From NCBI RefSeq assembly GCF_020886775.1, contig NZ_AP024525.1, forward strand, positions 1,054,001 through 1,118,000: a stretch of DNA of 64,000 nucleotides, read 5' to 3'. The stretch comes from Sinomonas cyclohexanicum. Lineage in GTDB: Bacteria; Actinomycetota; Actinomycetes; Actinomycetales; Micrococcaceae. The translations under genes and the position numbers were made by a program. Numbering within the stretch: the first letter of the stretch is position 1; each line of letters begins with the position of its first letter. The notes under the pieces were generated by a model, which was not told the DNA's origin, did no database searches, and saw only the letters and a list, made by a program, of their open reading frames with translations. Of the stretch, positions 18,974 to 63,247 are shown one piece after another.

Positions 18974-20404
18974 TCAGAGGACGGCCCCGAGGACCTCGTT
19001 GAAGGCCTCGGACGAGGATGGGTGGGTGTACATGCGGTCCCGCAGCGCGGTGTAGGGCAGCCCGTGGTCCATCGCGAGCGAGACGAGGTTGATGATCTCC
19101 TGCGAGTCGACGCAGAAGAGGGCGGCCCCGAGGACGGCGTCGGTCCTCCTGTCGACGACCACCTTGATCAGTCCGCGCGGGTCACGGACGATCTTGGGCC
19201 GCGGCATCGCCGCGATCTTGGCAACCTCCTTCGACGCTACGCCCACGTCCCAGCCGCGCTCGGCGGCCTGCTCGCGCGCCTGGCCCTCGGTCAGCCCCAC
19301 CCGCGAGAACGGCGGGGTGACGAACGTGGTGGTCGGGATGGTGTTCCGGTCCGTGGTGGTCCGCTCCGGGCCGCCGAGGACCTGCGAGAGCACGATCCGG
19401 TGGTCGTCGAGCGAGACATAGGTGTGCTGCGGGCCGCCGTTGACGTCGCCGAGCGCCCACACGTCCGGCGCGGTGGTGCGCAGGCGTTCATCGACGACGA
19501 CGGCGCCCCGCCCGTCGGTCTCGACCCCCGCCTTGTCGAGTCCAAGCCCCTCGGTCGCGGGCCTGCGTCCGAGCGCCAGCAGGACGGCGTCGGCCTCCAC
19601 CGTGACCGGCCCCGCGCCCGAGGCGACGCTCACGTGCAGCGGCGAGGACCCGCCGTCGTGCGTGCCCGTCTTCTGGCCCTCTGCGTCTCCGACGCCTGTC
19701 ACCTCGGCGCCCTGGAGGAACCGCACGCCGTCGCCCGCAAGGACCGAGGCGACGGCCTCGGCGACATCCCGGTCCTCGTGCTTGAGCGGGACGGGGGAGC
19801 GGTCCACCACGGTGACGTCGGAGCCGAAGGCTGCGTACATCGAGGCGAACTCGTACGCGATGTATCCGCCGCCCACGATCATGAGCCGCGCCGGCAGGTT
19901 GGACTCCGAGATCAGGTCGGTCGAGACGTGGACGCGGGGGCTCAGGACCTGGCCGCCCTCGGCGAGGCCGGGGATGTCCGGGACCACGGGCAGCGATCCC
20001 GTGTTGATGTAGAAGCGCTCGGCCGTGAGCTCGCGCTCGTCGCTGCCGGCGGTCAGGCGCACGCGCTTGGGCGCGACGAACTCGGCGCGGGCGGTGATCG
20101 CCGTCACGGTATCGATCGAGTCGAGCATCGAGTAGTTCACGCCGCGCAGCGTGGCGGTGAGCTGGTCCTTCTGCGCGATCGAGTCCGTGTAGTGGGCGGC
20201 ATCTTCGCCGTCATGGCCGAGGTGGGCCGAATAGACGAGGGCCTTGGTGGGCACGCACCCGATGTTGATGCACGTTCCCCCGTACATCGCCTCGGACTGT
20301 TCGATCATCGCGACGCGGCGTCCCGCTCGGCCGAGGACTCCGGCGAGCGTCTTGCCGCCTTTGCCCCAGCCGACGAACACGTCGTCGAACTCAAGAACGT
20401 CCAT
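18974..20404 (-). CDS. RclA-like pyridine nucleotide-disulfide oxidoreductase
   Basis: This 476-residue flavoenzyme has an N-terminal FAD motif ([18 protein letters not shown]), the redox-active pair in [13 protein letters not shown], an NAD motif ([16 protein letters not shown]) and a C-terminal dimer segment ending [13 protein letters not shown]. It resembles RclA/YkgC, which protects against reactive chlorine and copper stress, more than mercuric reductase, having no N-terminal metal domain. ATG 20404 is preferred to GTG 20413, as homologues start close to the FDDVFVGWG segment. A Gly/Ser/Thr-rich insertion near residues 230-250 contains one copy of the dispersed 12-mer (19651-19662). Confidence 0.85.
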
Positions 20405-20546
20405 GGATGCCACCGCTTCCGTGAGGAGTTGCTCCCATCCTATCCACGCGGCAAATCATCAGCTCGGGGATACACAGCGGTCACATGAGGGGCATAGCAT
20501 CGCCACGCGGGGTCGCACGCGGCCCGGCCAACGTGAGGGAGAGCGC

Positions 20547-20849
20547 ATGAGACTCAGTCCGCGTGAGCAGGAGAAGCTCATGATCGTCGTGGCCGCCGAC
20601 CTGGCCCGCCGGAGGCAGGCCCGCGGGGTCCGGCTCAACTACCCCGAGGCGGTCGCGATCATCAGCTACGAGCTCATCGAGGGCGCCCGGGACGGGCGCA
20701 GCGTCGCCGAGCTCATGAGCTGGGGCGCCACGATCCTCACGCGCGACGACGTCATGGAGGGGGTCCCGGAGATGATCCACGACGTGCAGATTGAGGCCAC
20801 CTTCCCCGACGGCACGAAGCTCGTGACCGTCCACGAGCCGATCCGCTAG
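20547..20849 (+). CDS. ureA: Urease gamma subunit
   Basis: The 100-residue protein begins [11 protein letters not shown] and contains [21 protein letters not shown] and [24 protein letters not shown], the complete gamma-subunit pattern. It is the small non-catalytic subunit of the cytoplasmic nickel urease. ATG 20547 follows GAGGGAGAG; a longer frame upstream is non-coding. It is the first gene of the operon, nine bases before the fused beta-alpha gene. Confidence 0.96.
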
Positions 20850-20858
20850 GAGCCAGCC

Positions 20859-23030
20859 ATGGCAGCGTCCCCCCAGGGGCACGTCCCCGCACAGGTCATT
20901 CCCGGGCAGATCCTTCCCGCCGAGGGCGAGATCATCCTCAACGCGGGCAGGCCGGTCATCGAGCTCGATGTCACCAACACCGGCGACCGGCCGGTGCAGG
21001 TCGGCTCCCATTACCACTTCGCCGAGGTCAACCGGGCGCTCGACTTCGACCGCGGTGCGGCGCGCGGGCTCCGGCTCGACATCCCCGCCGGCACGGCGGT
21101 GCGCTTCGAGCCCGGCGACCGCAAGGCCGTTCGGCTCGTCCCGCTCGGGGGCGCCCGGGAGGTCTATGGGCTCCGCAGCCAGGTCGACGGCCCCCTCGAC
21201 GCCGAGAAGGGGTCCCGTGACGCCGAGGTCGGGTCCGGGCTCCCCAACCGGGCCATCCCGCGTGCCCAGTACGCCCAGCTCTACGGCCCCACCACCGGCG
21301 ACAGGGTGCGCCTCGGCGACACGGACCTCTTCGCCGAAGTCGAGCATGACCTCACGGTCTACGGCGAGGAGGTCGTGTTCGGCGGGGGCAAGGTCCTGCG
21401 GGACGGCATGGGCCAGAACGGCCGCGTGACGCGGGGCGGCAGCCCCGACACGGCCGTGCCCGACACCGTCATCACGAACGCCCTCATCATCGACTGCACA
21501 GGCATCTACAAGGCGGACGTCGCGATCAGGGACGGCCACATCCAGGCCATCGGCAAGGCGGGGAACCCGCTGATCCAGGACGGCGTGGACATCGTCGTGG
21601 GGGCCTCGACCGAGGTCGTCGCAGGGGAGCGCAAGATCCTCACGGCCGGCGGGATCGACACGCACATCCACTTCATCTCTCCCGACCAGGTCCCGACGGC
21701 GCTCGCCTCGGGCATCACGACGATGATCGGCGGCGGCACAGGCCCGGCCGAGGGCACGAAGGCCACGACGGTGACGCCGGGCGCGTGGCACATCGAGCGC
21801 ATGCTCGAGGCCGTGGAGGGCCTGCCGATGAACTTCGGCTTCCTCGGCAAGGGCCACGCGTCGAGCACCGCGCCGCTCGCGGAGCAGATCGAGGCGGGGG
21901 CGATCGGGCTCAAGGTCCACGAGGACTGGGGCGCGACCCACGCCTCGATCGACATGGCCCTGCGTGTGGCCGACGAGTACGACGTGCAGGTCGCGATCCA
22001 CACGGACACGCTCAACGAGTGCGGCTTCCTCGAGGACACGGTTGCCGCGATTGCCGGCCGGGTCATCCACACGTTCCACACCGAGGGCGCGGGCGGCGGC
22101 CACGCACCGGACATCATCGCGATCGCCGCGCACCCGAACGTGCTGCCCGCCTCGACCAACCCGACGCTGCCGTTCACGCAGAACACCGCCGAGGAGCACC
22201 TCGACATGCTCATGGTGTGCCATCACCTCAGCCCGGCGATCCCCGAGGACGTCGCGTTCGCCGACTCGCGCATCCGGCCCGAGACGATCGCCGCCGAGGA
22301 CGTCCTGCATGACCTCGGCGTCTTCTCGATCACGTCCTCCGACTCGCAGGCCATGGGCCGCGTCGGGGAGGTCGTCACCCGCACGTGGCAGCTCGCCGAT
22401 GCGATGAAGGCCCGCCGCGGGGTGCTCACGCCGGATCCCTCGCCAGGCGAGGCAGCGCACGACGGCGAGCGCGCGCCGTCGTCCGGCGCCTCGCCTGCCG
22501 CGGGACTCGCCGACAACTTCAGGATCAAGCGCTACGTCTCGAAGTACACCATCAACCCGGCGATCGCGCAGGGCATTGCCGACTCGGTCGGCTCGGTCGA
22601 GGTGGGCAAGTTCGCCGACCTCGTCCTGTGGGACCCGGCGTTCTTCGGCGTCAAGCCGGACCTCGTGATCAAGGGCGGGGTCATCGCGAACTCCGTCATG
22701 GGCGACTCGAACGGGTCCATCCCGACCCCGCAGCCGCAGACGCTGCGGATGGCATGGGCGTCCCACGGGCGCAGCACCCAGTCCAGCTCGATCACCTTCC
22801 TCTCGAAGGCGGCGATCGAGGCCGGCGTCCCGGAGCGGCTCGGACTGCGCAAGCAGATCCGCGCCGTGGGCGGCATCCGGCACCTGACCAAGGCGGACCT
22901 GCCGTTCAACGGCGCCACCCCGCGGCTCGAGGTCGACCCGCAGACGTACGAGGTCCGCGTGGACGGCGAGCTCGCCACGTGCGAGCCCGCCGAAGTCCTC
23001 CCGCTCGCGCAGCGCTACTTCCTGTTCTAG
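20859..23030 (+). CDS. ureBC: Urease beta-alpha fusion protein
   Basis: One uninterrupted 723-residue frame joins a beta subunit (residues about 1-108, [16 protein letters not shown] and [18 protein letters not shown]) to a full alpha subunit (from about 131, [21 protein letters not shown]). No stop and no in-frame start codon lie in the junction I read (about 108-131), so the chains appear truly fused. Catalytic features are present: HIHFISP, the carbamylated-lysine segment [25 protein letters not shown], the flap MVCHHLS and [13 protein letters not shown] 21-residue insertion before DNFRIKRY coincides with a palindrome. Urease hydrolyses urea to ammonia and carbamate. Confidence 0.95.
22446..22495. 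repeat. 50-bp two-tier palindrome inside ureBC
   Basis: GGCGAGGC (22446-22453) pairs with GCCTCGCC (22488-22495), and ACGACGGCG (22459-22467) with CGCCGTCGT (22474-22482), leaving a 6-base loop and 5-base internal loops. It contains one copy of the dispersed 12-mer. It encodes most of a low-complexity insertion absent from typical urease alpha subunits. Confidence 0.75.
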
Positions 23031-23038
23031 GAGCCCGC

Positions 23039-23497: not shown

Positions 23498-23499
23498 CC

Positions 23500-24243
23500 A
23501 TGCCTGTGCCCGTCGGTACGTCGGTGCCTTCCCTGGCCTCCCTCCTCCAGCTCGCCGACTCGGCGCTCCCGACGGGCGCGTTCAGCCAGTCGTTCGGGCT
23601 CGAGGTCTATCTCGAGTCCGGCGAGGTCCACGACGAGGCGACCCTCCTCGCGTGGCTCGAGGGCTACCTCTCGACCCAGCTGACGTTCACGGATGCGATC
23701 GCCGTCCGCCGCGCCGTGCGCATCGCGGAGGGCGGGTCCAATCACGCGGAGGGCGGGTCCCGCACCAGCCTCGCCGAACTGGACGCCGAGCTCACGGCCG
23801 TCCTCCTCCCCGCAGAGATCCGCCGCGCGAGCCAGACCATGGGCCGGCGGCTGCTCGAGATCGCGGGGGAGTCGTTCGCGCCCGTGGTCCCCGTCCTGGC
23901 AGACGTTGCCTCCTACGCGGCGGATGCCGCCCGCGGGGTGTGCGCCGGCCACTACTCCATCGCGTTCGCGCTCGCGGGCGCGGGCCAGGGCCTCGACGAG
24001 GAGACGCTCGTCGAGGCATACGTCTACTCGGCCCTCACCTCGCTCACGTACAACGCCATCCGCGCGATCCCCCTGGGCCAGCTCGCAGGCCAGCGCGTCC
24101 TCGGTGCGCTGCGCGCCCGGGTGCCGCACGCCGTCGTGCGTTCAAAGACCCCGGACGAGCGGCTGTTCGGCGCCGCCGCACCCGCCCTCGAGATCCACCA
24201 GATGCGGCACGAGCACCAGCGCGCCCGCATGTTCGTCAGTTAG
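23500..24243 (+). CDS. ureF: Urease accessory protein UreF
   Basis: This 247-residue all-helical protein has the UreF signatures DSALPTGAFSQSFGLE and SLTYNAIRAIPLGQ. UreF works with UreD and UreG as a scaffold and GTPase-gating factor for nickel insertion. A 15-bp direct repeat (23725-23739 and 23746-23760, period 21 bases) duplicates the peptide Ala-Glu-Gly-Gly-Ser in a surface loop. A copy of the dispersed 12-mer is at 24129-24140. The gene sits between ureE and ureG with short gaps. Confidence 0.92.
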   Translation: MPVPVGTSVPSLASLLQLADSALPTGAFSQSFGLEVYLESGEVHDEATLLAWLEGYLSTQLTFTDAIAVRRAVRIAEGGSNHAEGGSRTSLAELDAELTAVLLPAEIRRASQTMGRRLLEIAGESFAPVVPVLADVASYAADAARGVCAGHYSIAFALAGAGQGLDEETLVEAYVYSALTSLTYNAIRAIPLGQLAGQRVLGALRARVPHAVVRSKTPDERLFGAAAPALEIHQMRHEHQRARMFVS

Positions 24244-24882: not shown

Positions 24883-25775
24883 CGGCAGCAGCGAGGCTCG
24901 CCCCCGGACCGCGCACGACGGCGGCGCCCCACCGCACGCCCGACCGGCCCCTCACGGGCGAGCTCCACCTCGGCGTCGAGCGCCGCGGAGCGCGCAGCGT
25001 GGCCGTGGAGCGGTTCCACACGGGTGCGCTGAGGGTGCTGCGCGCCCACTACCCGGATGCGAGCGGGCAGCCCCTGTTCACAGTCGTGAACCCGGGTGGC
25101 GGGTACCTCGGGGGCGACGCGTACAGCACGGCGGTCGAGGTCCGGGAGGGTGCGTCGGTGCAGCTGACCACTCAGGCGGCCACGAAGGTCTACCGCACGC
25201 CCCAGGGCCCGGCGCGCGCAGACCAACGGTTCGCGCTCGGGCCCGGGGCCCGCCTCGAGTCGCTCCCGGATCCCGTGATCGCCTACCGGGGCGCGCGGTA
25301 CCGCCAGGACACGCGGGCCGACCTCGCCCCGGATGCGTCGCTTGCGCTCGCGGAGGTCGTGACCCCGGGCTGGGCGCCGGACGGGCAGGCGTTCAGCTTC
25401 GAGGAGGTCTCCCTCGTGGCGCGCGTGCGCGTGGGGGGTCGGCTGGCCGTCGTCGACAACCTGCTGCTGCGCCCCGCCGAGGGCGGCACCGCCCCGCTCA
25501 TGCTCGCAGGCCGCTCGCATGTGGGCTCGCTGCTCGTGGTGGATCCCCACGCGCACGACGCCGCCGTCGTCGCCCTCCGCGTGCATCTCGCCGACCTGTT
25601 CCCGCACTGCCTTGGGGGACCACTCGTGGGGATCACGCGGCTCGCGGTCCCCGGCTTCGCGCTCCGTGTGCTCGCCGACTCGACCGGCGCCGCGGAGGCG
25701 GTGGTCCGTGCCGCAGTGGACTGGACCCGGGACGCGTGGCACGGCCTCGCACCTGTGGCGCTGAGGAAGTACTGA
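24879..25775 (+). CDS. ureD: Urease accessory protein UreD
   Basis: This 298-residue protein shows the UreD/UreH pattern with [23 protein letters not shown] and the [16 protein letters not shown] segment. It forms the UreDFG complex that loads nickel into urease. The N-terminal 25 residues are a Thr/Ala/Pro/Arg-rich extension holding one copy of the dispersed 12-mer (24912-24923). It is the last gene of the operon; no nickel transporter gene is linked. An IS element lies 218 bases downstream. Confidence 0.92.
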
Positions 25776-27746: not shown

Positions 27747-28262
27747 GTGGTGAGCACAGAGAGCACAGCAGAGGCCGCATCTGGGGGCGCGCACGACGGC
27801 GCACAGCGGCTTCGCGTCATGGTCCCCATGCGCTGGGGAGACATGGACGCGTACGGGCACGTGAACAACGTGCAGATCGTCCGCATGCTCGAGGAGGCGC
27901 GGATCGCGGCATTCGGCCCTCCGGGCGGAACGGGGGCGGCCGGCGTCGAGCCCCTCGTTCCGCTGTTCTCGGCGGTGCCGGACGGCACGCTCGCACTCGT
28001 CGTCGAGCACCGCGTGCGGTACCTGCGCCCGCTCGACTACCGCAACGTCCCCGCCCAGGTCGAGGTGTGGGTGAGTGGGCTCAAGGCCGCCGCACTCACG
28101 CTCGACTACGTGGTCCACGACCCGGTGGACGGCCACGAGTGTGTGCGGGCGACGACGCAGCTCGCCTTCGTGGACGAGCCCACCGGACGCCTGATCCGGC
28201 TCACGCACGAGCAGCGCGGCCGACTCGCCCCATACGTCGGCGCCGGGATTTTCTCTCGATAA
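27747..28262 (+). CDS. Acyl-CoA thioesterase, 4HBT hot-dog family
   Basis: The 171-residue protein has the hot-dog catalytic segment RWGDMDAYGHVNNVQIVRMLEEAR near residue 29 and VVEHRVRYLRPLDY in the central sheet, as in 4-hydroxybenzoyl-CoA thioesterase-like enzymes. The substrate is unknown. It starts at GTG 27747 or at the next GTG (27750). The first 22 residues are a non-conserved extension that contains a copy of the dispersed 12-mer (27790-27801, encoding Ala-His-Asp-Gly). Confidence 0.85.
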   Translation: MVSTESTAEAASGGAHDGAQRLRVMVPMRWGDMDAYGHVNNVQIVRMLEEARIAAFGPPGGTGAAGVEPLVPLFSAVPDGTLALVVEHRVRYLRPLDYRNVPAQVEVWVSGLKAAALTLDYVVHDPVDGHECVRATTQLAFVDEPTGRLIRLTHEQRGRLAPYVGAGIFSR

Positions 28263-29397: not shown

Positions 29398-30189
29398 ATG
29401 GCGAAGAACGCGAACGCGACCGAGAAGCTCGATCTCCGTCTCAAGGCGGTGCTGGACGGATTGGCAGGGGCGGCCCTGGCGAATGAGAGCGTGGACGCGC
29501 GGGCGGTCTTGGCGGCTTCCGTGGACGCGGTGCCGTTCGATGAGCATGAAGCATTCCTCCTCTCCGGCGGCATCCCCCGCGGGCACAAGGCGCTCACTGC
29601 AGCAACGGCCAAGCTCGTCAAGGCGGGCTGGATGGTCAAGGGGCGCGCAGGCTGGGCCATCACCGAGGAGGGCCTCCGCGCAACGGTCGCCTTCCCGACC
29701 GCGCAGGCTCTCGCTGAGGCCCTCGCATCAGGCACCCCGGTCCCGGCGGACACGCCCGTTCCCACCGAAGCGCCCGCCAAGAAGAAGCCCACGCGGAAGT
29801 CGCCCGCGAAGGTGAAGGCGAAGGCGACCGCGCCCCAGCCCGCTGAGGTCTCCGAGGTTCCCGCGGACGCAACCGGCGCCGTCGACCTCGGCCAGCCGGA
29901 CGCCGTCGCGATTGCCGGTGACTTCGCGACGCACCTCGGCGCTGAGGCCGACTGGGAGCCTCAGCCCGACGCCGTCCAGATGGGCCTCGACTCCGTGTCC
30001 CGCCGCTGGGTGCGCACCGTGGACCTTCCCGCCGGCCACTACGCGTTCAAGATTGCGATCAACCGCTCGTGGGACGAGAACTACGGCGCGTTCGGCACGT
30101 TCAATGGCGCGAACCACGAGCTCGCGCACGACGGCGGTCCGGTCACCATCGCATACGACCACGGCACCAAGGACGTCGCCTTCTCCTGA
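29398..30189 (+). CDS. Winged-helix/X25 pullulanase-type domain fusion protein
   Basis: The 263-residue protein has three parts: a helical start with a winged-helix-like unit (about residues 45-100, PRGHKALTAATAKLVKAGW), a Lys/Pro/Ala-rich linker (105-165) and a beta domain (168-260, AIAGDFATHLG, DLPAGHYAFKIAINRSWDENYG) resembling the X25/E-set domain of amylopullulanases. No catalytic domain or signal peptide is present, so the X25-like unit would act in the cytoplasm. Function is unknown; a glycogen- or glucan-responsive DNA-binding factor is one possibility. ATG 29398 fits GAGGGG better than ATG 29380. A 12-mer copy encodes Ala-His-Asp-Gly-Gly at 30125-30136. Confidence 0.65.
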   Translation: MAKNANATEKLDLRLKAVLDGLAGAALANESVDARAVLAASVDAVPFDEHEAFLLSGGIPRGHKALTAATAKLVKAGWMVKGRAGWAITEEGLRATVAFPTAQALAEALASGTPVPADTPVPTEAPAKKKPTRKSPAKVKAKATAPQPAEVSEVPADATGAVDLGQPDAVAIAGDFATHLGAEADWEPQPDAVQMGLDSVSRRWVRTVDLPAGHYAFKIAINRSWDENYGAFGTFNGANHELAHDGGPVTIAYDHGTKDVAFS

Positions 30190-32035: not shown

Positions 32036-34273
32036 ATGAGCGTTGACATGTGCCTCGAGCTTCGGGAGAACGGCCTCCCCGGGCACTATGCCGTGCGCGT
32101 CCTCAGCGCGCCGGCCGGTGGGCAGAGCCACGGAACCCTGAACCTCGACGTCGATCGCATCCAGGGATCGCTGCGGGACGTCGAATCGACGGTCCTCGCC
32201 TCGTCGGTGTCCGCGCGCCGTGTGGTGCCGCAGTCGGAGCAGGTCCTGCAGGCGATGGGAAGCGAGCTGTTCGCCGCGGCGTTCCCCCGAGACGTCTACG
32301 GCACCTACCGCGCGAGCCTCGCCTCAGCCGCGCAGTCCGGCGAGCGGTTGCGCGTGGTCCTGAGCTTTGCCGCGCCCCAGCTGGCGGCGCTGCCCTGGGA
32401 GCTCATGTTCGACCCGGGGCTCGGAACCTATGTGTGCCGTTCGGAACCGCTCCTCCGGACGATCCCCGCCGAGGACTACCACCGCCGGCCCCTGAGGATC
32501 ACGCCGCCCCTGCGCATTCTCGGCATCGTCGCTTCGCCCCGAGGCCTGCCGCAGCTCGACGTCGAGGCGGAGAAGCAGCACCTCGCCGAGGCGCTGTCCG
32601 ATTATGTGGAGTCCGGGCAGATTGAACTTGTCTGGACTGAGGAGGCCACGTGGGACGAGGTCCACGAACTGCTTCTGGACGGGCCCTGGCACGCGGTCCA
32701 CTTCATCGGGCACGGTGACTACGATGCCCTGAGCGAGTCGGGCCTTGTGGTGTTCAACGGTCCCGACGGCAGGCCCCACCGCGTCACGGCGGACCAGCTG
32801 GTCGACTTGCTGAGCACGGCCGACCCCACTCCGCGGCTCGTGTTCCTCAACTCGTGCAATTCGGGGCGGTCTGGGGACGAGGACCTATTCTCCAGCACGT
32901 CTGCGGCCTTGGTGCGCGGGGGCATCAGCGCGGTCGTCGCGATGCAGTTCGCGGTCTCGGACGCGGGTGCCATCGCCTTCTCGCGCGGCTTCTACAAGGC
33001 ACTCGCCGCGGGCCGGGCGGTCGACGAGGCCACACGCAACGGGCGCATCGCCATGCGCGGACGCTCGGACACGAGCCTCGAGTGGGTGACGCCGGTGCTG
33101 TGTGTGCGCGGCGGTGCCACGGAGCTGTTCGCGCTCGGCAGGCGGTCACGACGCGCCGCCCGTCAGGCAGCGGAGCCTGCCGCTCCCCGGCGGCCGCGGC
33201 CGGTCGTGGCGCAGGAGGAGGAACCGGCACACGCCGCGGGCCCGCAAGCGGTGCCGGGCGGGGCGGGCCGGGAAGAGGAGCCCCCCGGTGCGCACGACGC
33301 CGGGGCGGTCCCGTTCGCCAGCACGGTCCCGTTCGCAGCCGCGGCACCTGAGAGCCTGCCGCTGAGCCCCCCGGCGCGCCGCCTCCGCGTGGGCGACGAC
33401 GCAGGGGGCCTGGCCATGTCCGCCGACGGTGCCCTCATCGCCGTCGGGCGACGACGCGGGGTGACGCTGATCGAGACGGCGAGCGGCGCCGTCGTGCGCG
33501 AGCTCCGCACGGAGGACGGACGGGACTTCTCTCGGGTGGCCCTGAGCGGCTCGACCGACCGCGTGGCTGCAGGCTCGTGGTTTGGCTCGCTCGCCGTGTG
33601 GAACGCGTCGACGGGGACGCAGCTCATGGCCGCCTCGGCCGGCGCCTCGGTGGATGGGCTGGCCTTCGCCTCGCAGGGGCGGCTCGTGGTCGGCTCCCTC
33701 GAGTCCATGTCCCGCGAGGCCCAGCGAACGCTCGTGACGACGTGGGACGCGACGACGGGAGCGCGGGGCCGTGTCGCCCGGCAGCAGGACCTTGACGAGC
33801 CGAACGATGCCCTCGCCCTCAGTGCCGACGGCGCATGGCTGGCGGAGGCGGATCCCCAAGGGGTCGTGGAGGTCCACGGCACGGAAACCGGCGATCTCGC
33901 CGGGCGGATCCACTCCCCCGGGCCAGTCCGAGTCCTCGCCGTGAGCGGCGGCGGAGAGCGGGTGGCCGCTGGTTCAGCCGACTTCGGGCTGTGTGTGTGG
34001 AGCCTTGCTGGTCCGGCCCCTCGCCTGGACGTCGTGCGGAGCGGCGACGTGGGCCACCTCGCGTTCAACGGCACCGGGAGCCAGCTCGCGGCCAGCTGCG
34101 TCGACGGCCGCCTTCTGGTCCTCGATCCCGACTCCGGCCGGATCTGGGTCGCCGTCGAATGCAGGGAACGAGTCCGTGCGCTGGCCCTCGCCGCGGACTG
34201 CTCTAGTCTCGCCGCGCTCGAGGACGACGGCACGGTGACCCTCTGGCACCTCGCCGCCTCTACCTCTTCTTGA
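32036..34273 (+). CDS. CHAT-domain protease fused to a seven-bladed WD40 propeller
   Basis: This 745-residue cytoplasmic protein has an N-terminal CHAT caspase-like domain with LPWELMFDPGLG at residue 119 and catalytic His226 (HFIGHGDYD) and Cys274 (LNSCNSGRSG). A Pro/Ala/Glu-rich linker (about 370-440) leads to seven WD-type repeats (about 450-745). CHAT proteases act as cell-death or processing effectors in several bacterial immune systems, and propellers usually sense a partner; both roles are inferred here. GGGAG precedes ATG 32036. Its last 14 bases overlap the convergent DUF1801 gene. The McrBC genes lie just downstream. Confidence 0.88.
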   Translation: MSVDMCLELRENGLPGHYAVRVLSAPAGGQSHGTLNLDVDRIQGSLRDVESTVLASSVSARRVVPQSEQVLQAMGSELFAAAFPRDVYGTYRASLASAAQSGERLRVVLSFAAPQLAALPWELMFDPGLGTYVCRSEPLLRTIPAEDYHRRPLRITPPLRILGIVASPRGLPQLDVEAEKQHLAEALSDYVESGQIELVWTEEATWDEVHELLLDGPWHAVHFIGHGDYDALSESGLVVFNGPDGRPHRVTADQLVDLLSTADPTPRLVFLNSCNSGRSGDEDLFSSTSAALVRGGISAVVAMQFAVSDAGAIAFSRGFYKALAAGRAVDEATRNGRIAMRGRSDTSLEWVTPVLCVRGGATELFALGRRSRRAARQAAEPAAPRRPRPVVAQEEEPAHAAGPQAVPGGAGREEEPPGAHDAGAVPFASTVPFAAAAPESLPLSPPARRLRVGDDAGGLAMSADGALIAVGRRRGVTLIETASGAVVRELRTEDGRDFSRVALSGSTDRVAAGSWFGSLAVWNASTGTQLMAASAGASVDGLAFASQGRLVVGSLESMSREAQRTLVTTWDATTGARGRVARQQDLDEPNDALALSADGAWLAEADPQGVVEVHGTETGDLAGRIHSPGPVRVLAVSGGGERVAAGSADFGLCVWSLAGPAPRLDVVRSGDVGHLAFNGTGSQLAASCVDGRLLVLDPDSGRIWVAVECRERVRALALAADCSSLAALEDDGTVTLWHLAASTSS

Positions 34274-34667: not shown

Positions 34668-35333
34668 TCAGGCGCCCACGGGGGCCGCGCAGGGAGGGAC
34701 GTCCGCCTGGGCGGGATGCGCGAAGGCCGCCGAGGAGACGAAAGCCTGCCAGTCGCCGTCGTGCGCACCGAGCGCGGTGAGGGTGTACAGCCGGGCACCG
34801 TCGTGGACCCACAGGCTGTCACCGCTGCCGCTGCGGCCGTCCTTGGCGACGGTGAAGCGCGTGTGGACCGCGCGCATGCCGGCCACGGTGGTGGTCTCCT
34901 GAGCGTCGACGCCGTGCGAGTCCGCCGCCGCGCTCTGCGCCATGGAGTCAACGGACGTCGTGGCCATGGTCCGGAGCGCGAAGTCGGCGGCATCATCCTG
35001 CACGGCGCACTCGAGGTCTACATACCCGGCGAGGTACCAGTTCGTCGTCCCTGCCATGTATGACTCGCCCGCGCGCACGCCGTCGCCGGGGCCGCGGTCG
35101 GGGAGACGCCGGGGCTCCGTGGGGAAGGCGACGGTCAGCCCGCTCGCGCCCACGGCCGACGCCGGGCGGGCCGCGTCGAACGCGAGGTACGCCGCAGACG
35201 GCGAGTCTCCCCTGACCAGGACGCGGTCGAGGAAGGGCCTGCCGAACGCGAGCACGGCGATGGCCACGGCGACTGCGCCGAGGACCGCAACGACCGGGAG
35301 GAGCCGGCGCGCACGAGGGGGCACTGGGGGCAC
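34668..35333 (-). CDS. Membrane-anchored exported protein of unknown function
   Basis: The 221-residue protein starts at GTG 35333 with a basic stretch and one hydrophobic segment (about residues 10-30), followed by an extracytoplasmic domain without a recognised family. Two cysteines may form a disulfide. A copy of the dispersed 12-mer lies at 34754-34765, encoding Ala-His-Asp-Gly within a conserved-looking strand. It follows mcrC in the same direction by about 60 bases, but nothing ties it to restriction. Confidence 0.65.
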   Translation of the reverse strand: MPPVPPRARRLLPVVAVLGAVAVAIAVLAFGRPFLDRVLVRGDSPSAAYLAFDAARPASAVGASGLTVAFPTEPRRLPDRGPGDGVRAGESYMAGTTNWYLAGYVDLECAVQDDAADFALRTMATTSVDSMAQSAAADSHGVDAQETTTVAGMRAVHTRFTVAKDGRSGSGDSLWVHDGARLYTLTALGAHDGDWQAFVSSAAFAHPAQADVPPCAAPVGA

Positions 35334-35394: not shown

Positions 35395-36618
35395 TCAGGG
35401 CGCGAGATAAGGGGCCACGGCGGCGATGAGCTGGTCGCGGACGAGCACGGAGGCGACGGAGAGGTCCACGGTCGCAGCGCCGAGCCGGTGGCCGGAGGAG
35501 ACGAAGGATTCAGAGAGCGCCGCGCCCGTCGACGGGTACAGCAGGAGACCGCCCGCCGCGAGGGACGCGGGATCCGAGGTGGACTCCTGCTCGCGCACGT
35601 AGGCGTACAGCTGGTACAGGTGGCCCGAGCTGAGGGTCTCGCGTGCGAACCGGCCCGGCCGCAGCGCCGCCGTGAACTTGGTGTCGATGATCAGCCGGCG
35701 GCCCGGGGCGGACGCCTGGGCGGGAACGTCGATCCACACGTCCGTGACCATGTGCGGCAGGACGGCGGCCATTCCGAGGGTGGCACCGGTCGTCTTCCAG
35801 CCGACCTTTCGGCCGCGCTGCACGGTCCACCGGCGCGGGCGCCCGTGCACCGTGTAGAAGCCGCCGACGGCCCCCTCGAACAGGTTCCGGAACTGGCGCT
35901 CGTCGAGGGCGCCCCGTCCGTGCCCCGGGTTGGTGCGCCCGAACGGCAGCGACAGCTGGAGCGCGAGCCGGGCCGCGAGCAGCACCGAGCGGTCCCGCTG
36001 GTCGTTGCGGGTCAGGCGCAACGCGGCCAGCACAGACTGGTCGCGCTGCCCGGCCCGCAGGTCGAGGACGCCGACGCCGAGCTGGGCCAGCCGCTGCGAC
36101 TGGCCCTGGCAGCGCCGCATGAGCTCCTCGTCGCCGCACAGCCGGGCGATCGAGTCCAGCGCCGTGCGGATCAGCCGATTGCGCGGCGTGTCCACCGTGA
36201 GCTCCTCGAACCGGCACGCGACGAGGCCGCGCGAGAGGAGCTGGTGGGACTCGGTACGCAGGGTATCGATCCCCCCGCGCACGCGGGACAGGTCCCGCGA
36301 GGTCTTGGCGAACGAGGGCGTGAGGGGCCTCCGCAACCGGTCCTCGGTGCTCGCGACGAGCAGCTCGGCGAGCAGCTCGGGCAGCTTCTCGGGGTACTCC
36401 TCGACGCCGTCGAACGCCTCGGGGCCCGACTGGTAGAACTCCGACGCGTACAGGAGCAGGAGCCACACGTTGCGGACCGGGATGCTCACCCCGCCGGCGA
36501 CGACGACGGAACCGTCCGCGGCCGCGGCCGGGTGGCCGGGCGACGGCGCGTGCTCGGGGTCGGCGGCGTCCGCGGGGTGGCCGGTCGCCGTCGTGCGCTC
36601 GGGGTCGGCCTGCGTCAC
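35395..36618 (-). CDS. mcrC: McrC-family restriction nuclease subunit
   Basis: The 407-residue protein has the McrC N-terminal region (SIPVRNVWLLLLYASEFY at residue 45) and a C-terminal PD-(D/E)xK nuclease core with Asp293 (TDVWID) and Asp312-x-Lys314 (IIDTKF). McrC joins the McrB GTPase ring to cut modified DNA. It starts at GTG 36618, overlapping the mcrB stop by four bases. Residues 1-40 are a Pro/His/Ala/Asp-rich extension not typical of McrC, made of two imperfect repeats; one contains the dispersed 12-mer (36586-36597). Confidence 0.88.
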   Translation of the reverse strand: MTQADPERTTATGHPADAADPEHAPSPGHPAAAADGSVVVAGGVSIPVRNVWLLLLYASEFYQSGPEAFDGVEEYPEKLPELLAELLVASTEDRLRRPLTPSFAKTSRDLSRVRGGIDTLRTESHQLLSRGLVACRFEELTVDTPRNRLIRTALDSIARLCGDEELMRRCQGQSQRLAQLGVGVLDLRAGQRDQSVLAALRLTRNDQRDRSVLLAARLALQLSLPFGRTNPGHGRGALDERQFRNLFEGAVGGFYTVHGRPRRWTVQRGRKVGWKTTGATLGMAAVLPHMVTDVWIDVPAQASAPGRRLIIDTKFTAALRPGRFARETLSSGHLYQLYAYVREQESTSDPASLAAGGLLLYPSTGAALSESFVSSGHRLGAATVDLSVASVLVRDQLIAAVAPYLAP

Positions 36619-38901: not shown

Positions 38902-39453
38902 TCACGTGATGGTGTAGCGCAGGTACGCGAAGCGTCCGATCCGGCGTTCGTCGGCGAGCACCAGATCGAGCCGCGCATCCGGCAGCGCGGGCGTCCCGCC
39001 GCCCACCGCGACGGGGGCGATGAACAGCCGGCCCTCGTCCACGAGGCGCGCCGCGAACGCCTCCGCCGCGAGGCCCGGGCCGCCGATTGCGAGGTCTGCC
39101 CCCGAGTGTTCCTTGAGCGCGCGCACCTCGGCGGGATCGAAGACCCGCTCGAGCCTGGTCCGCGCCGTCGTGGCCTCCTCGAGCGTCCGGGAGTACACGA
39201 TCTTCTCCGCGCCGCGCCAGATCTGAGCGAAATCGCGCACGACGGCGGGCTGGCCGGCCTCGATTCTGGGGTCCTCCCACGCGCGCATCACCTCGTAGAC
39301 CCGCCGCCCGTACAGGTAGGTGCCCACCGGGCGCAGGAGATCGTTGACCGCGGCGTGGACGTCCTCGTCCGGGGCCGCCCAGTCGAAGTTCCCGGCGCGG
39401 TCCGCGATGTAGCCGTCGAGCGAGGCGAGGTTCATGTAGACGAGGCGTCCCAT
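38902..39453 (-). CDS. RibD C-terminal (dihydrofolate reductase-like) protein
   Basis: The 183-residue protein starts MGRLVYMNLASLDGYIADRAG, typical of the DHFR-like RibD C-terminal family, with TYLYGRRVYEVM and DLAIGGPGLAAEAF as nucleotide-binding segments. Such proteins are NADPH-dependent reductases of unknown substrate. ATG 39453 matches the family start; 12 codons upstream are open but not conserved. A 12-mer copy lies at 39236-39247. Confidence 0.85.
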   Translation of the reverse strand: MGRLVYMNLASLDGYIADRAGNFDWAAPDEDVHAAVNDLLRPVGTYLYGRRVYEVMRAWEDPRIEAGQPAVVRDFAQIWRGAEKIVYSRTLEEATTARTRLERVFDPAEVRALKEHSGADLAIGGPGLAAEAFAARLVDEGRLFIAPVAVGGGTPALPDARLDLVLADERRIGRFAYLRYTIT

Positions 39454-46603: not shown

Positions 46604-47380
46604 TCACTGGGCGTTGCCCGGCCGCGCGGCGACGGCGCTGGAGATCGTGGCCGCGATCGCGCCGGCCGTGGCCGGGTCGATCGTGCCGCCCCGGCCGCGG
46701 GCGGAGGCGTGGACCGCGTGGACCCCGGCGTCGAGGAGCGGGGGCACGAGGGCCGCGGTCACGCCGCCGCCTGCCATGATCTCCAGGCCCGGCGCGTGCT
46801 CCCGCGCGAGCCCGACCAGCCGTCGCAGCGCGGTGAGCCCGAGCCTGCAGTCGGGGGCGCCGCCGCTCGTGAGGACCCGGTCCGCACCGGTGTCCGCGAG
46901 GCGGGCCAGCGCGGCTGCGGGTTCGGCGCCCGCGGCCAGGGCGGCGTCGAACGCCCGGTGGAACGTCACCTCGGCGTCCGGCGCCTCCGCGCGCACGACG
47001 CCGGCCACTCGCCTCAGCGCCTCGGCGTCCGGCCCGCCGTCGCGCGACAGCATGCCGACGACGACGCCTGCCGCCCCCGCGCGCACGGCCTGGACGCAGC
47101 CCCGCTCGATGGCCGCGAGCTCCTCGCGGCCGTAGGCGAACCCGCCGGGCCGCGGGCGCACGAGCACGTGGACCGGGAGGCCCACCGCGCACGCGGCCTC
47201 GATGTCCGCGAGGCTCGGCGTGACTCCGTCCGTCGCGGCGAGGTCCGCGCACAGTTCCACACGCAGGGCGCCCGCCGCGGCGGCGACGCGGACCCCCGCC
47301 TCGGACTCGACCGCGAACTCGAGGGCGACCCGTTGCCCGACCCCGAGCCCGGCGCCCGTACGGTTCAGAACCCCTGCCAC
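46604..47380 (-). CDS. cutC: CutC-family protein
   Basis: This TIM-barrel protein has the CutC pattern: [28 protein letters not shown] near the start, [12 protein letters not shown], and [16 protein letters not shown]. CutC was linked to copper homeostasis, but its catalytic role is unknown. The start is uncertain; GTG 47380 gives 258 residues and overlaps the nagB end by 16 bases, while the frame stays open upstream to 47497. It is the last gene of the EIIC-nagB-cutC operon. Confidence 0.82.
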
Positions 47381-50287: not shown

Positions 50288-51052
50288 CTACAGCCGCACC
50301 TCCATGCTCAGGGCGTACCGGTCCGAGCGGTACCATGAGCGCGCGTGCTCGATGGGCAGGTCGCCTGAATACGAGGTGCGGTCGAAGAACAGGACCGGGG
50401 CCCCCGCCACGGTGCCCAGGAGCACGCCGATCTCGGCGGGGGCGCTCTCGGCGCGGACCGTCTGGCGGGCCCGGTCGATCTGGTGCCCGAACTTCTCGGC
50501 GAGCGCCTTGTAGACGGAGCCCGTGAGGTCGATGTCCAGCAGCCCCTCGGCGTGCGCGGGGTGGTACCACGCGTCGTCCACGCTCACGGGCCGCCCGTCG
50601 GCGAGGCGCAGGCGGCGCAGGTGGATCGCCTCGGTTCCCTGCGCGAGGCCGAGCGCCTCCGCGGTGTCCTCGGGCGCCGTCGTGCGCTCGGCGGTGAGCA
50701 CCACCGTGCTGGCTGTGAGTCCCCGGGCCTCCATCTCCTGGGTGAACGAGGCCAGGTGGAGGGTGGACTGGATGGCGGAGTCGGCCACGAACGTGCCCTT
50801 GCCCGGCACGCGGACCAGGTGGCCATCGGTCACGAGGCGGCCGATCGCGGCGCGAACGGTGATGCGGGAGACCCCGTACATGTCCATGAGCTCGCGCTCG
50901 CTCGGCAGGCGTGCGCCTGGGGTGAGGTCCTCCTTGGCCAGCCGGAGGATGATCGCGCGCAGCTGCTCGTGCTTGGGCACGATCGAGTTGTCGAGCGTGG
51001 CCGCGGACGCCGGGGACGCGCCCGGGGCGTCGGGCGTGGTCGTCGCTGGCAT
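50288..51052 (-). CDS. dasR: DasR/NagR-type GntR regulator
   Basis: The 254-residue protein has an N-terminal GntR winged helix (LPSERELMDMYGVSRITVRAAIGRLV) and a C-terminal UTRA domain (from about residue 95) as in HutC-subfamily DasR and NagR, which sense glucosamine-6-phosphate and control GlcNAc use. It likely binds the CTGGTTATGACCAG site at 49472. A 12-mer copy (50675-50686) encodes Arg-Thr-Thr-Ala-Pro in the UTRA part. It is convergent with the EIIA gene, one base apart. Confidence 0.88.
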   Translation of the reverse strand: MPATTTPDAPGASPASAATLDNSIVPKHEQLRAIILRLAKEDLTPGARLPSERELMDMYGVSRITVRAAIGRLVTDGHLVRVPGKGTFVADSAIQSTLHLASFTQEMEARGLTASTVVLTAERTTAPEDTAEALGLAQGTEAIHLRRLRLADGRPVSVDDAWYHPAHAEGLLDIDLTGSVYKALAEKFGHQIDRARQTVRAESAPAEIGVLLGTVAGAPVLFFDRTSYSGDLPIEHARSWYRSDRYALSMEVRL

Positions 51053-52359: not shown

Positions 52360-53235
52360 ATGGGCACGTCAACGGGCAGGACAGTGGCTGTACTCGGGAC
52401 TGGGATCATGGGCTCGGGCATGGCGAGGAACCTCGCGAAGGCGGGGTTCGACGTCGTGGTCTGGAACCGCCACCGCGAGCGGGCCGCGGCGCTCGCGGAC
52501 GACGGCGCGCGGGTCGCCGAGAGCGCGGCAGACGCCGTTGCCGGCGCGGATGTGGTGCTGACCATGCTGTTCGACGAGGCGGCGACCGCCGAGACCATGG
52601 CCGGGGCCCTGGCCGCACTGAAGGACGGTGCCGTCTGGATCCAGAGCGCGACCGTCGGCCCGGACGGGGCGCGGCGGCTCGCCGAGCAGGCCCGCGCGGC
52701 CGGCGTGACGTTCGTGGACGCGCCGGTCATGGGCACCCGGCAGCCCGCCCAGGAGGGGACGCTCACGGTGCTGGGCGGGTGCGCGCCCGAGGTGCGTGAC
52801 GCCGTCGTGCCCGTGTTCGACGCGATCGGGTCGAAGACGATCTGGGTGGGGGAGCGGCCGGGAGACGGGCAGCGGCTCAAGCTCGTCATGAACTCGTGGG
52901 TCCTCACGCTCGTGGGCGGGGCGGCGCAGGCGATCGACCTCGCGCGCGGGCTCGGCCTCGACCCGCAGCTGTTCCTCGACACGATCTCCGGTGCGGGCAC
53001 GGACAGCGCGTACGCGCAGGCGAAGGGCAGGGCCATGATCGCCGGCGAGTACCCTCCCGCGTTCCCGCTCGACGGCGCGGCGAAGGACTCGGGGCTCATT
53101 GGCGACGCGCTGCGGTCTGCCGGTGTCAGTGCCGTGCTCATGGACGCCCTGCGCGATCGGTTCGAGACCGCGGCGGCAGCGGGCCACGGGGGCGAGGACA
53201 TGGCCTCCGTCGTCGAGGCGTTCCGCCTCCCGTAG
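52360..53235 (+). CDS. 3-hydroxyisobutyrate dehydrogenase-like NAD(P)-dependent oxidoreductase
   Basis: The 291-residue protein has the beta-hydroxyacid dehydrogenase pattern: VLGTGIMGSGMARNLAKAGFDVVVWNR, FVDAPVMGTRQPAQEGTLTVLGG and the catalytic lysine segment GQRLKLVMNSWVLTL, with KDSGL near the C-terminus. The substrate may be hydroxyisobutyrate, tartronate semialdehyde or a succinic-semialdehyde-like compound. It ends three bases before a convergent flavodoxin gene. Confidence 0.88.
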   Translation: MGTSTGRTVAVLGTGIMGSGMARNLAKAGFDVVVWNRHRERAAALADDGARVAESAADAVAGADVVLTMLFDEAATAETMAGALAALKDGAVWIQSATVGPDGARRLAEQARAAGVTFVDAPVMGTRQPAQEGTLTVLGGCAPEVRDAVVPVFDAIGSKTIWVGERPGDGQRLKLVMNSWVLTLVGGAAQAIDLARGLGLDPQLFLDTISGAGTDSAYAQAKGRAMIAGEYPPAFPLDGAAKDSGLIGDALRSAGVSAVLMDALRDRFETAAAAGHGGEDMASVVEAFRLP

Positions 53236-55001: not shown

Positions 55002-55058
55002 GCGGCCGCCGTCGTGCGCCCGCCGCTGCGCCGGCCGGGCAGGGGCGGGGCCGGGAGG

Positions 55059-57994: not shown

Positions 57995-58723
57995 TCAGTG
58001 TACACGCTCACGGGCCGCGTCCGTTCGCATCCTGTTCGTGCGCAGGCGGAGCAGGGCGATGCCGACGGCGGCGAACCAGACCCAGAGCAGCGGTCCGTAC
58101 GCGGCATAGAGTGCGGTCGCGGCAAAGCGCAGCGCCTCCGCGGCGAGGCCGAGCGCGCCGGTCGCGATGCCGAGCCAGCCGATCCAGTGGGGGAGCGCGC
58201 CGCGGACCATCGGAATCGAGATCAGGAGGACCCCCAGCGGGGTCAGGATGCCCGCGAGCGTCACCGTGTTGTTCTCGGCGACGAGCGCCTCCGCGGCCGC
58301 AGCGAGGGCCGACCGCGCGCCGTCGTCCGCCGCGGCCGCGTACTGGTCGCTGAGCGTCACGAGCGCGAGGCTCCCGACGCTGCTCGTGGGCACGGCGAGA
58401 AGCGCGATCCACGACCCGGCCCCGACCACGAAGCCCAGGACCGCGAGGCTCGGGTTCGCGGGCAGAAGGACCACGAGGAGGGCGGCGAATACGACGAGCC
58501 CGAAGAGCGACGGCACGAGCCACAGCAGCTGCTGGGCGATGTAGGAGACCTTGTGGTCCGCGATGAAGCGCAGCGTCGCCTCGCCGCCGGAGACGGGCGG
58601 CGCGTCGACGAAGTAGAGGGCGAGGGCCGTGACGCCGAACGCGACGACCAGCAGCGCCGCGATGCCTGCGGTCCGATACAGCGGAACCCACAGGCGAGGA
58701 GCGGGCCAAGCTGGCGTCGTCAT
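57995..58723 (-). CDS. Integral membrane protein, DUF4386-like
   Basis: The 242-residue protein has about six hydrophobic segments, starting with [22 protein letters not shown] and ending with [15 protein letters not shown]. Between helices 2 and 3 lies a short extracellular Asp/Ala-rich stretch. The pattern resembles DUF4386 membrane proteins without known function. ATG 58723 precedes the family-like start; the longer frame is not conserved. Confidence 0.65.
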
Positions 58724-61084: not shown

Positions 61085-62606
61085 GGAGTGTGGGGCGGAG
61101 CTCGGTCCAGTCGCGGGAGAACTGGGCCCGCGCCTCGGAGGCCCGCTGCTGTTCGAGAGCGTGGAGACGGCCGAAGCTGAACGCGTTGGCGCCCTCCGCC
61201 TGCGCCTGGACGGCGAGTTCGCGTAACACGCCTCGGCTCACGACGCTGTCCTGGAGGATTCCGAGCGTCTCCTGGATCTGCTCGGCCGCCCTGGCCAGCT
61301 TCGTGGCCCGCTTGCCCAGGACCGGCGCCGCCGCTTCGGCTCCGTACCGCAGGCGCTTGGCGCTCTTCCGCACCTCGTGGAGTGCGGCGTCGAACGCGGC
61401 CTCGTCCGAATCGGCGGCGTCCTCCGCCTCCTCAGCAGCACTGACAGCGTTCACAAGCCGTCCGATGTCCCTGGCAACGAGCCGGGCCGCGGCCTTGTGC
61501 GCCTTCTTCGCGGCGAGCTGCGTCAGCGGAGGATCGGCGAGGAACGCGTCGAGCGCGTCGAGCAGGCGGAAGTACCGTTGGCTGGACATCGCCTCGAGCC
61601 CCGCGGCGTGCGCCTCCCGGTACTGGCTGGCGGACGATTCAGCGATCCGCAGCACCACCGGGCCCATGAGCAGATCGGCGGGCTCGGCCGCGGAGAGGGC
61701 CTTCAGCCGATCACGCATGACCTCGATGTCGCGTGCGCGGCCGACCTCTCCGGCCAGCCATTGCAGCTCCTGCCGAAGGCGGTTGGCAGTATCGGCGTCG
61801 GTGAGCTTCCTGTACGTCGCCAAGGCGGACCGCATGCGGCGGGCGCTAACGCGCAGTTGATGCACCGAGTCTGGCGCGTCTTCCCTCACCGCCGGGTCGA
61901 CGGCCTTGAGGGTGTCCACATGGTTCTGAACGTACGCGAGGAGGACCTTCCCCGCGGGCCCCTTGCGTTTGGGCCGCTTCAACGGCTTCTTCGTGGTGGG
62001 GTGCGCCGGGCCGAGGGCACGGGCCAGCTTCGACTGCACCTCCGCGCGGTTCACACCGACGGCAGCCAGGAGGTCGTCGGCCGCCGTGAGGATGTCCTCA
62101 GAGCCCCTGAGCAGCTCGATCTCCCATTCGCGCCAGAACTGCAGCAGGCCCTCGCCGATCGGTGCCTCTGATTCGACGCGGTCGTCGCAGAACTCCGCCA
62201 GCACCACGTTGTCTGTGCCGAGCAGGGGGGTGGCGGTGCGCCGGGTCCTGAGCTGGGCGATGGGGAGGAGGTCCTTGTCCCGGACGTGGACGCGCACCAG
62301 GGCGCGGAGCCGTTCCGGCACGGCGCCTCCGTCCGGGCCCAGAGGCTCCCTGATCTCACGGCGGGCGCTCGGGCCCGCGGGGAGCTTCAGATGCCACCCG
62401 GCATCCGGGCCTCCCCTGCGTCGCCGCAGGGTAATCCCGTGGCCGGCCAGCGTGAAGTCATCCGTGTCGAAGTACACCGCCTCCAGATCAAGGCTCACGG
62501 GCGGCCCCGTCCGCTCCACGTGCGGCAGGTCGGTCAGGGGCGGGACCGAGGTGTCCTGGCCGACGGTGTACTTCCGCTCCACCTCGACGGTGCTCAGAGC
62601 AGCCAT
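61071..62606 (-). CDS. CYTH-CHAD domain protein
   Basis: The 511-residue protein has an N-terminal CYTH triphosphate-tunnel domain with the metal motif VEVERKY (ExExK) and paired RRRR and Lys/Arg strands, and a C-terminal CHAD domain of two helical halves (HQLRVSARRMRSAL, HEVRKSAKRLRYGAE) with conserved basic residues. CYTH domains hydrolyse triphosphates, and CHAD domains bind polyphosphate granules, so a polyphosphate-linked triphosphatase is likely. ATG 62606 matches the family start. Its end overlaps the convergent gene by 14 bases. Confidence 0.9.
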   Translation of the reverse strand: MAALSTVEVERKYTVGQDTSVPPLTDLPHVERTGPPVSLDLEAVYFDTDDFTLAGHGITLRRRRGGPDAGWHLKLPAGPSARREIREPLGPDGGAVPERLRALVRVHVRDKDLLPIAQLRTRRTATPLLGTDNVVLAEFCDDRVESEAPIGEGLLQFWREWEIELLRGSEDILTAADDLLAAVGVNRAEVQSKLARALGPAHPTTKKPLKRPKRKGPAGKVLLAYVQNHVDTLKAVDPAVREDAPDSVHQLRVSARRMRSALATYRKLTDADTANRLRQELQWLAGEVGRARDIEVMRDRLKALSAAEPADLLMGPVVLRIAESSASQYREAHAAGLEAMSSQRYFRLLDALDAFLADPPLTQLAAKKAHKAAARLVARDIGRLVNAVSAAEEAEDAADSDEAAFDAALHEVRKSAKRLRYGAEAAAPVLGKRATKLARAAEQIQETLGILQDSVVSRGVLRELAVQAQAEGANAFSFGRLHALEQQRASEARAQFSRDWTELRPTLLRRP

Positions 62607-62673
62607 GGCTCCACTGTACGGACCCCTCCGCACGCAGGGCATCGGGCGAAGGACCCTCGTTCTGGCGCCGTCC

Positions 62674-63042
62674 CTACTCGTCCCCCGCCAGATGCAGCGA
62701 GGCGGCCTGGAGGATCGCTTCGACGTCGGCGTCCGGGTCGTCCGCCCGGTAGGAGTCGGCGACCGACTTGAACCCGATCGCCATCCCGAGCACCAGCCGC
62801 GTGTAGCTGGGGGCGAGCGCCTCGATGACCTTGCGGATCACCTCGGGGAGGATCTCGCGGAGTGCCTCGGCCTGGTTGGCGGAGCCGCCGGAGAAGGTGA
62901 CTGATACGTCGTCGTCCACCCGGGCGAGGGTCTTGAGTGACTCCTTGAACATCTCGGTCGCTGCAGGGTCGTCGGGCTCCCACGTGAGGGCCGCGGTCAG
63001 GATGCCGATGCCCCGCTGGATCATCTCCGTGTCATCGCTCAT
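62674..63042 (-). CDS. Unknown small protein
   Basis: The 122-residue protein from ATG 63042 (GGAG just upstream) is acidic and mostly helical, with no transmembrane segment. It ends with an Asp/Glu-rich helix. I recognise no family. It stands alone on the minus strand, upstream of the CYTH-CHAD gene. Confidence 0.6.
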   Translation of the reverse strand: MSDDTEMIQRGIGILTAALTWEPDDPAATEMFKESLKTLARVDDDVSVTFSGGSANQAEALREILPEVIRKVIEALAPSYTRLVLGMAIGFKSVADSYRADDPDADVEAILQAASLHLAGDE

Positions 63043-63247
63043 GACTCCATCGTGCACCGGGTCCGCTCAGTGCGCTCCGATCTCCTCCGGTGCGCACGAC
63101 GGCGCCCCTCGCCTCGCGCCCGAGCGCGGGCTCGCCGTCGCGTTGGCGGCCTTGGCCAGTGGAAAGCTATGGTGAGGGTCGGCGCCGCACTCGCGTCAAT
63201 GGGGACGCCCCTTCGCGGGGCATGGGGGAAGGGGGGGTGCCACTGCC

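Follow-up and report, generated by a model that had tools for sequence, protein, structure and literature searches.

As far as the accessible portions of the literature go, DNA uptake sequences have been described for two Gram-negative families only (PMC1939737, PMC12616744), and the known words have no orientation bias (PMC1939737). For the Neisseriaceae, the available parts of two papers describe a DNA uptake sequence (DUS) whose dialects follow phylogeny, whose core is strict and whose inverted pairs stand as hairpins between genes (PMC3630211), the pairs acting as terminators and conserved words sitting in permissive places (PMC2397512); an excerpt of another paper reports two dialects for the uptake signal sequence (USS) of the Pasteurellaceae (PMC12616744). 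Micrococcus luteus, of the same family as the bacterium studied here, needs ComEA and ComEC homologues together with tad genes for transformation (PMC4322843, partial text), and the terms "uptake sequence" and "sequence-specific" are absent from two searched papers on M. luteus. Here we analyze a window of 64,000 bases (positions 1054001-1118000 of the 4,413,566-base contig NZ_AP024525.1) from Sinomonas cyclohexanicum, hereafter the host, in which a 12-base word, CGCACGACGGCG, recurs on both strands. The word is DUS-like in most respects visible from sequence, and we consider it most likely, with moderate confidence, to be a DUS- or USS-like "self" tag of the genus Sinomonas.

The window holds 16 exact copies, eight per strand, against 0.16 expected from dinucleotide shuffles, and 38 matches with at most one mismatch against 3.84 expected. 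A preliminary description of the window had counted 16 copies, eight in each orientation, and all of its coordinates are correct. The whole host genome contains 663 exact copies (335 forward and 328 reverse; one per 6.7 kb), compared with six of the reversed word (2 + 4). In an 844-kb sample, made up of 39 stretches of 20 kb from the host genome plus the window, CGCACGACGGCG has the top order-5 Markov z-score among 12-mers seen at least eight times (113 copies vs. 4.9 expected), and 24 of the 25 top-scoring 12-mers overlap the word or a one-base variant of it. Gene calling with our own script yielded 792 genes covering 84% of this sample. These genes contain 61 copies, whereas 60 synonymous-codon shuffles gave a mean of 7.8 (standard deviation 2.4, maximum 13), and eight control words (reversed, core-mismatched or rearranged) gave zero to eight copies each; one of the latter, CGCAGGACGGCG, was itself raised (8 vs. 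2.2 under the synonymous shuffle). The remaining 52 of the 113 copies are intergenic, in the 16% of the sample without called genes. Coding copies are read in all three frames, 42 in sense and 19 in antisense orientation, which confirms the earlier suggestion that no shared peptide lies behind the word. The codon-preserving shuffle and the comparison with other words had been proposed in the preliminary description as checks on its claim, and the excess stands against both. The word is thus enriched at the level of DNA, beyond codon use, in coding and intergenic sequence alike.

The tolerance of the word to substitution is uneven. The enriched one-base variants have A at position 1 (34 vs. 3.6 expected), G at position 3 (36 vs. 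5.3), T at position 4 (28 vs. 7.8, with G and C to a lesser degree) and C or A at position 10 (44 vs. 4.3 and 20 vs. 3.3, respectively); enrichment is mild at positions 2 and 5 (10-12 vs. 3-5), and variants within the core GACG.CG show none in the 844-kb sample. A purine precedes the word in 104 of the 113 copies, and C is favored, less strongly, at index 20-21 downstream of the word start. A first flank profile had suggested a downstream element of the USS type, which we rejected after splitting the copies by class, when much of the intergenic signal proved to be the inverted partner of the word. The C at index 20 persists in 18 of the 27 coding copies without a partner under four mismatches, a count that codon periodicity confounds. 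Beyond the purine at -1 and the weak C preference, no flank is shared across copies.

Comparison with related genomes, another check proposed in the preliminary description, places the word in 15 of 15 genomes of the genus and reveals two dialects. The 14 genomes other than the host carry 43-498 exact copies each, with controls at 2-12. The six with the fewest exact copies have many one-mismatch copies, and in these genomes CGGACGACGGCG (the G dialect) is commoner than the host form (the C dialect); loss of the word in these low-count congeners is therefore rejected. Nine genomes are C-richer, including the host at 663 C-words to 195 G-words and three that are nearly mixed (370/320, 253/208 and 246/204), and six are G-richer (73/514, 92/380, 90/299, 86/269, 43/245 and 57/224). 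The dialects sort with ComEC identity to the host, which is 59.7-69.4% in the other eight C-richer genomes and 48.7-52.2% in the G-richer ones; the ComEC tree leaves 9 of its 14 inner branches open.

At individual sites, both exchange and conservation of the word are seen. When host C-words were compared with one G-dialect genome, 9 of 53 lay in aligned blocks, with the C-word at two, the G-word in place at three and neither at four. In the opposite direction, 12 of the 28 G-words of that genome could be aligned and corresponded to three C-words, five other core-bearing words and, at four sites, to neither. Forty site alignments with several relatives, some sites counting for more than one relative, give 83% identity for the word and 70% for its flanks; the C-word is retained at 13 and the G-word is found at three, and 11-24% of generic 12-mers are retained. 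Such conservation counts depend on the alignment, since the same four named relatives give 9 of 15 sites or 9 of 19. A search for CGSACGACGGCG in 295 genomes of the family returned 281-858 copies in all 15 of the genus and 0-185 in the other 280 (31 genera), with the highest counts in two genera, of which 47 kb from one were examined. No over-represented 12-mer with at least eight copies was listed for 200 kb of one other genus (G015). If the word serves sequence-specific uptake, as proposed below, the raised counts and the word hairpins in sister genera would suggest that the trait is older than the genus.

We propose that some DNA-binding component of the competence machinery exposed at the surface, possibly ComEA or a minor subunit of the Flp/Tad pilus, would prefer double-stranded DNA containing RCGCACGACGGCG. 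Word-bearing DNA would be drawn into the cell and cross through ComEC, after which DprA and RecA would take it on to recombination. Chance gains of the word could then spread by transformation (molecular drive), because fragments that bear it would, on this proposal, enter more often; hundreds of copies would accumulate on both strands where they are tolerated, in protein linkers, protein termini and intergenic gaps. Two convergent copies would make a hairpin that may be reused as a transcription terminator, and a one-base shift in receptor preference could move a whole genome to a new dialect. We infer the receptor, the uptake preference, the drive and the terminator activity. The idea of a protein-binding word, raised in the preliminary description, is compatible with an uptake sequence, the binding being putative. 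The host has competence genes: ComEA (L100:10828-11730, minus strand), ComEC (L100:8998-10797, minus strand) and holA stand in a row, DprA is present, and a Flp/Tad locus (L253) encodes a Flp pilin followed by RcpC/CpaB, a ParA-type ATPase, a TadA-type ATPase and two T2SSF proteins, with two further secretion ATPases above the cut-off. We advance more tentatively, as possible and somewhat short of probable, that sequence-specific uptake arose for a third time, here in a Gram-positive actinobacterium, with a Flp/Tad competence system reading a word of 12-13 bases and two one-base "mating dialects" acting as a barrier to gene exchange.

Several observations weigh against an uptake sequence. Forty-four of the 53 host sites could not be aligned with the G-dialect genome, and neither word is present at 24 of the 40 site alignments. 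Inverted partners account for part of the downstream flank preference. Copies number 133-188 per Mb within 1.3 Mb of the origin and 74 per Mb farther out, a fall toward the terminus that uptake does not predict. A urease block (20.5-27.7 kb of the window) that four named Sinomonas loci lack at the corresponding position nevertheless carries three exact words. Whether or not they carry the word, 37 of 38 relatives have ComEC (all 15 of the genus among them), as do 10 of 14 control genomes, and DprA occurs in 11 of 14 control genomes; because both are so widespread, the presence of competence genes proves little. The sole ComEC that looks broken, that of G010, coexists with 245 G-words, and the literature on Sinomonas transformation yielded no uptake or transformation data. 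The G010 gene is apparently split over contigs 12 and 14 (L250), which may reflect a broken gene or an assembly effect, in the genome with the fewest C-words. We also considered whether ComEC loss lowers word counts; this was not borne out, as only the G010 gene looks broken and its genome holds the G-words just mentioned.

We nonetheless prefer the uptake sequence, because no single rival accounts at once for the copies in genes, the hairpins, the missing polarity and the one-base dialects across the genus. One alternative is that the word is the binding site of a chromosome-organizing or regulatory protein (a nucleoid protein or a gyrase-type site), kept by selection inside the cell and bound best as inverted pairs. 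The strict core with tolerant edges would suit such a site, as would the dependence of density on distance from the origin and the crowding of paired copies between convergent genes: 28 of the 52 intergenic copies fall in 19.7 kb of convergent gaps, with 20 in 71.7 kb of tandem gaps, three in 27.6 kb of divergent gaps and one at a stretch end. Supercoil stress is expected between convergent genes. A binding site of this kind, however, accounts poorly for 61 coding copies in all frames and orientations, for the absence of strand polarity, and for spacing that is near Poisson (48 stretches of 20 kb, mean 2.73, variance 3.14, five empty), and something would have to drive a switch of dialect by one base at hundreds of sites. 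We regard this alternative as unlikely.

The hairpins bear on a second alternative, in which the word is the mere stem of a common class of transcription terminators and its coding copies are by-products. An inverted partner (at most two mismatches, within 60 bp) accompanies 42 of the 52 intergenic copies, 30 of them perfectly, compared with 19 of the 61 coding copies and 8% of random places, and 28 of the 64 perfect hairpins in the 844 kb contain the core. The preliminary description had spoken of a dispersed short palindromic element; the word itself is no palindrome, and it is the frequent pairing of intergenic copies that upholds the idea in part. The 22 perfect-arm pairs listed from the host genome fold into stable hairpins (-28 to -64 kcal/mol), with no clear T run after any of them. 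The first arm in a convergent gap commonly starts 10-45 bases past the stop codon, with exceptions up to 447; the window pair at 61006/61046, which had been claimed as inverted and is real, starts 390 bases past the gene on its left, and its RNA fold has a z-score of -3.56, with one of 200 shuffles equally stable. Two genomes from another genus of the family (L255 and L256; G304 and G281) contain inverted G-words that form hairpins with T-rich tails, like classical terminators, which favors the stem explanation. The inverted pairs of G007 and G009 form a small, mixed set, and none was found in 45 kb of G248. The paired intergenic copies are predicted to form terminator-like hairpins, with putative terminator activity. 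Against a mere stem, 54% of copies (61 of 113) lie in called genes, eight times the codon prediction, and 42 of those in genes lack a partner within two mismatches. Furthermore, a stem requires complementarity only and no fixed word, nor does it require partners to face one way, as core-bearing pairs do (37 convergent, 8 divergent). We give the terminator stem a small chance of being the whole explanation.

A mobile palindromic repeat of about 36 bp, similar to repetitive extragenic palindromic (REP) elements or miniature inverted-repeat transposable elements (MITEs), could also have spread by transposition and decayed to single words. In its favor, the loop region GGGTGCCCACCC, or an AGTGGT-like loop, recurs in several intergenic hairpins, and the hairpins at L097:7269 and L097:9246 are identical across the whole printed stretch. 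Yet the copies have no common flanks beyond the base at -1 and the weak C preference, coding copies fit their reading frames with no common inserts, and at three sites the dialect base alone has changed in place. An extended palindromic unit with common flanks, mainly extragenic, would mark a REP or MITE family, and here 61 of the 113 copies lie within called genes. A mobile origin is very unlikely. Dispersed repeats of other kinds do occur in these genomes. GGGAAGTGACCC is present nine times in the 844-kb sample: five copies form a tandem array with a period of 19 bp, and three cluster about an inverted arrangement (genome positions 935170-935257, L046; 3341987-3342057, L095; and 5387, L042), and the G-dialect genome G009 (L110-L119, L150-L159) contains another, strongly over-represented dispersed family around TCTCGGGTACACCAACTCCCCTCCC and GTTTCGGGTACAGA.

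A word read by a moving enzyme, such as the recombination signal Chi or the FtsK-orienting polar sequences (KOPS) of chromosome segregation, would share its frequency, shortness and dispersal, but polarity defines KOPS and is usual for Chi. The distribution around origin and terminus, also raised as a check in the preliminary description, shows none: the host record begins at dnaA, and with the terminus assumed opposite, 78 copies run with the fork and 71 against it (p 0.62; 1.065 Mb). This lack of polarity already contradicts a Chi or KOPS reading, the inverted pairs speak against it too, and it is highly improbable. That the word is a by-product of guanine-plus-cytosine (GC) content, codon use or common peptides such as AHDG can be dismissed almost entirely, since, although the word is GC-rich and other genera hold 0-185 copies of CGSACGACGGCG with a reversed-word control at 0-46, the reversed-word (6 copies), Markov (113 vs. 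4.9) and codon-shuffle (61 vs. 7.8) nulls reject such an origin and the intergenic excess is strong (52 of 113 copies in 16% of the sample).

The exact word is absent from the first 19.65 kb of the window, as the preliminary description had stated, and it had read this absence as fitting recent import. On its own the absence is unremarkable, because 5 of 48 stretches of 20 kb are empty. Taking the exact word with its five better-tolerated variants, 0 of 27 copies fall there, with a boundary that was chosen post hoc; five one-mismatch copies of weaker kinds lie inside. GC content is lower at 4-20 kb (0.637-0.675), and to the left of about 17.7-18.5 kb there is no alignment to the four named Sinomonas loci. 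Lower GC, missing alignment and the 0 of 27 agree with import, the three words in the urease block and the five weaker copies speak against it, and the absence of the exact word is weak evidence for it. The urease block (20500-27700) is edged by a DDE transposase gene (26145-27539, minus strand), and a related urease stretch aligns in genome G001.

Most exact copies in the window lie in or beside called genes. The first (19651..19662, minus strand) is read in sense in a pyridine nucleotide-disulphide oxidoreductase gene (18974-20404, minus), in a loop whose surroundings vary between Sinomonas loci. This protein (taken as 18974-20413, minus) is 77-89% identical to proteins of the four named Sinomonas genomes, 79-91% identical to its close homologues in same-genus genomes and 53% identical to three Knoellia/Janibacter proteins; for an Mtr-type query, 10 of 15 genus genomes have no close homologue. 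The copy at 22456..22467 (plus) lies in a urease beta-alpha fusion gene (20859-23030, plus), with an inverted G-dialect word 18 bp on (22474, minus). The beta and alpha subunits are apparently fused in one reading frame there, with the word in the alpha part. The next two copies are antisense close to the end of gene 23524-24243 (plus), at 24129..24140 (minus), and close to the start of the UreD gene (24879-25775, plus), at 24912..24923 (plus). The word at 27790..27801 (plus), which lies immediately upstream of gene 27819-28262 (plus) or within its first codons, has the same place in three named Sinomonas loci despite differing flanks, and that at 30125..30136 (plus), in gene 29380-30189 (plus), is present in three of the four. 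Farther on, copies are found at 33487..33498 (minus; antisense in gene 32036-34273, plus), at 34754..34765 (minus; sense in gene 34668-35267, minus) and at 36586..36597 (minus), close to the start of gene 35395-36618 (minus), which adjoins an McrB-like gene (36615-38801, minus) whose match is below the cut-off of that model. The copy at 39236..39247 (plus) is antisense in gene 38902-39453 (minus); that at 40846..40857 (plus) is inside the called gene 40092-41042 (minus), where Sinomonas cellulolyticus has the identical word (L036); and that at 50675..50686 (minus) is sense in a GntR/UTRA regulator gene (50288-51052, minus).

The remaining exact copies are intergenic. One (55007..55018, minus) lies between the convergent genes 53916-55001 (plus) and 55059-55613 (minus), the convergent hairpin pair (61006-61017, plus, and 61046-61057, minus) between the convergent genes 60116-60616 (plus) and 61071-62606 (minus), and the last (63093..63104, plus) between genes 62674-63042 (minus) and 63196-63759 (minus). 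The G-dialect variant CGGACGACGGCG occurs at 22474..22485 (minus), 52496..52507 (plus) and 58318..58329 (minus). Tolerated variants are CGCACGACGCCG at 25552..25563, 33291..33302 and 46992..47003 (all plus) and 40799..40810 (minus), CGCACGACGACG at 44459..44470 and 44524..44535 (both minus), and CGCTCGACGGCG at 45930..45941 and 53066..53077 (both plus).

If the word is an uptake sequence, self-recognition in transformation can arise with another type of pilus and without an outer membrane, which would offer an independent test of the idea of molecular drive, a genus in which a one-base dialect can be tested as a species barrier, and a tool of practical use for genetic work on Sinomonas and its relatives. 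Among the literature matches listed, mainly non-subscription papers, there is no report of this word or of any actinobacterial uptake sequence, and confirmation by uptake tests would make it new for this bacterial group.

REP and MITE palindromic repeats and iterated words of the HIP1 type are also present in many dispersed copies, some of them palindromic or paired. The Sinomonas unit differs from these in being a non-palindromic 12-mer with half of its copies in called genes. Transformation in M. luteus by way of Flp/Tad provides a parallel within the same family, with ComEA and ComEC alongside tad genes (PMC4322843, partial text). With the USS of the Pasteurellaceae, as described in the accessible portion of the source (PMC12616744), the word shares its division into two dialects around one inner core, a copy number in the hundreds and a possible downstream preference; unlike the USS, it lacks an AT-rich downstream part, and its C about 20 bases from the word start is weak and confounded. 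In the available parts of the literature, the word also resembles the DUS of the Neisseriaceae (PMC3630211, PMC2397512), likewise a short non-palindromic word found hundreds of times on both strands, inside genes as well as between them, with one-base dialects between species, a strict core, inverted pairs in terminator positions and conservation in permissive surroundings. The Sinomonas word differs from the DUS in its sequence, its lower density (one per 6.7 kb) and its host, an actinobacterium without an outer membrane that carries Flp/Tad genes in place of those for a type IVa pilus.

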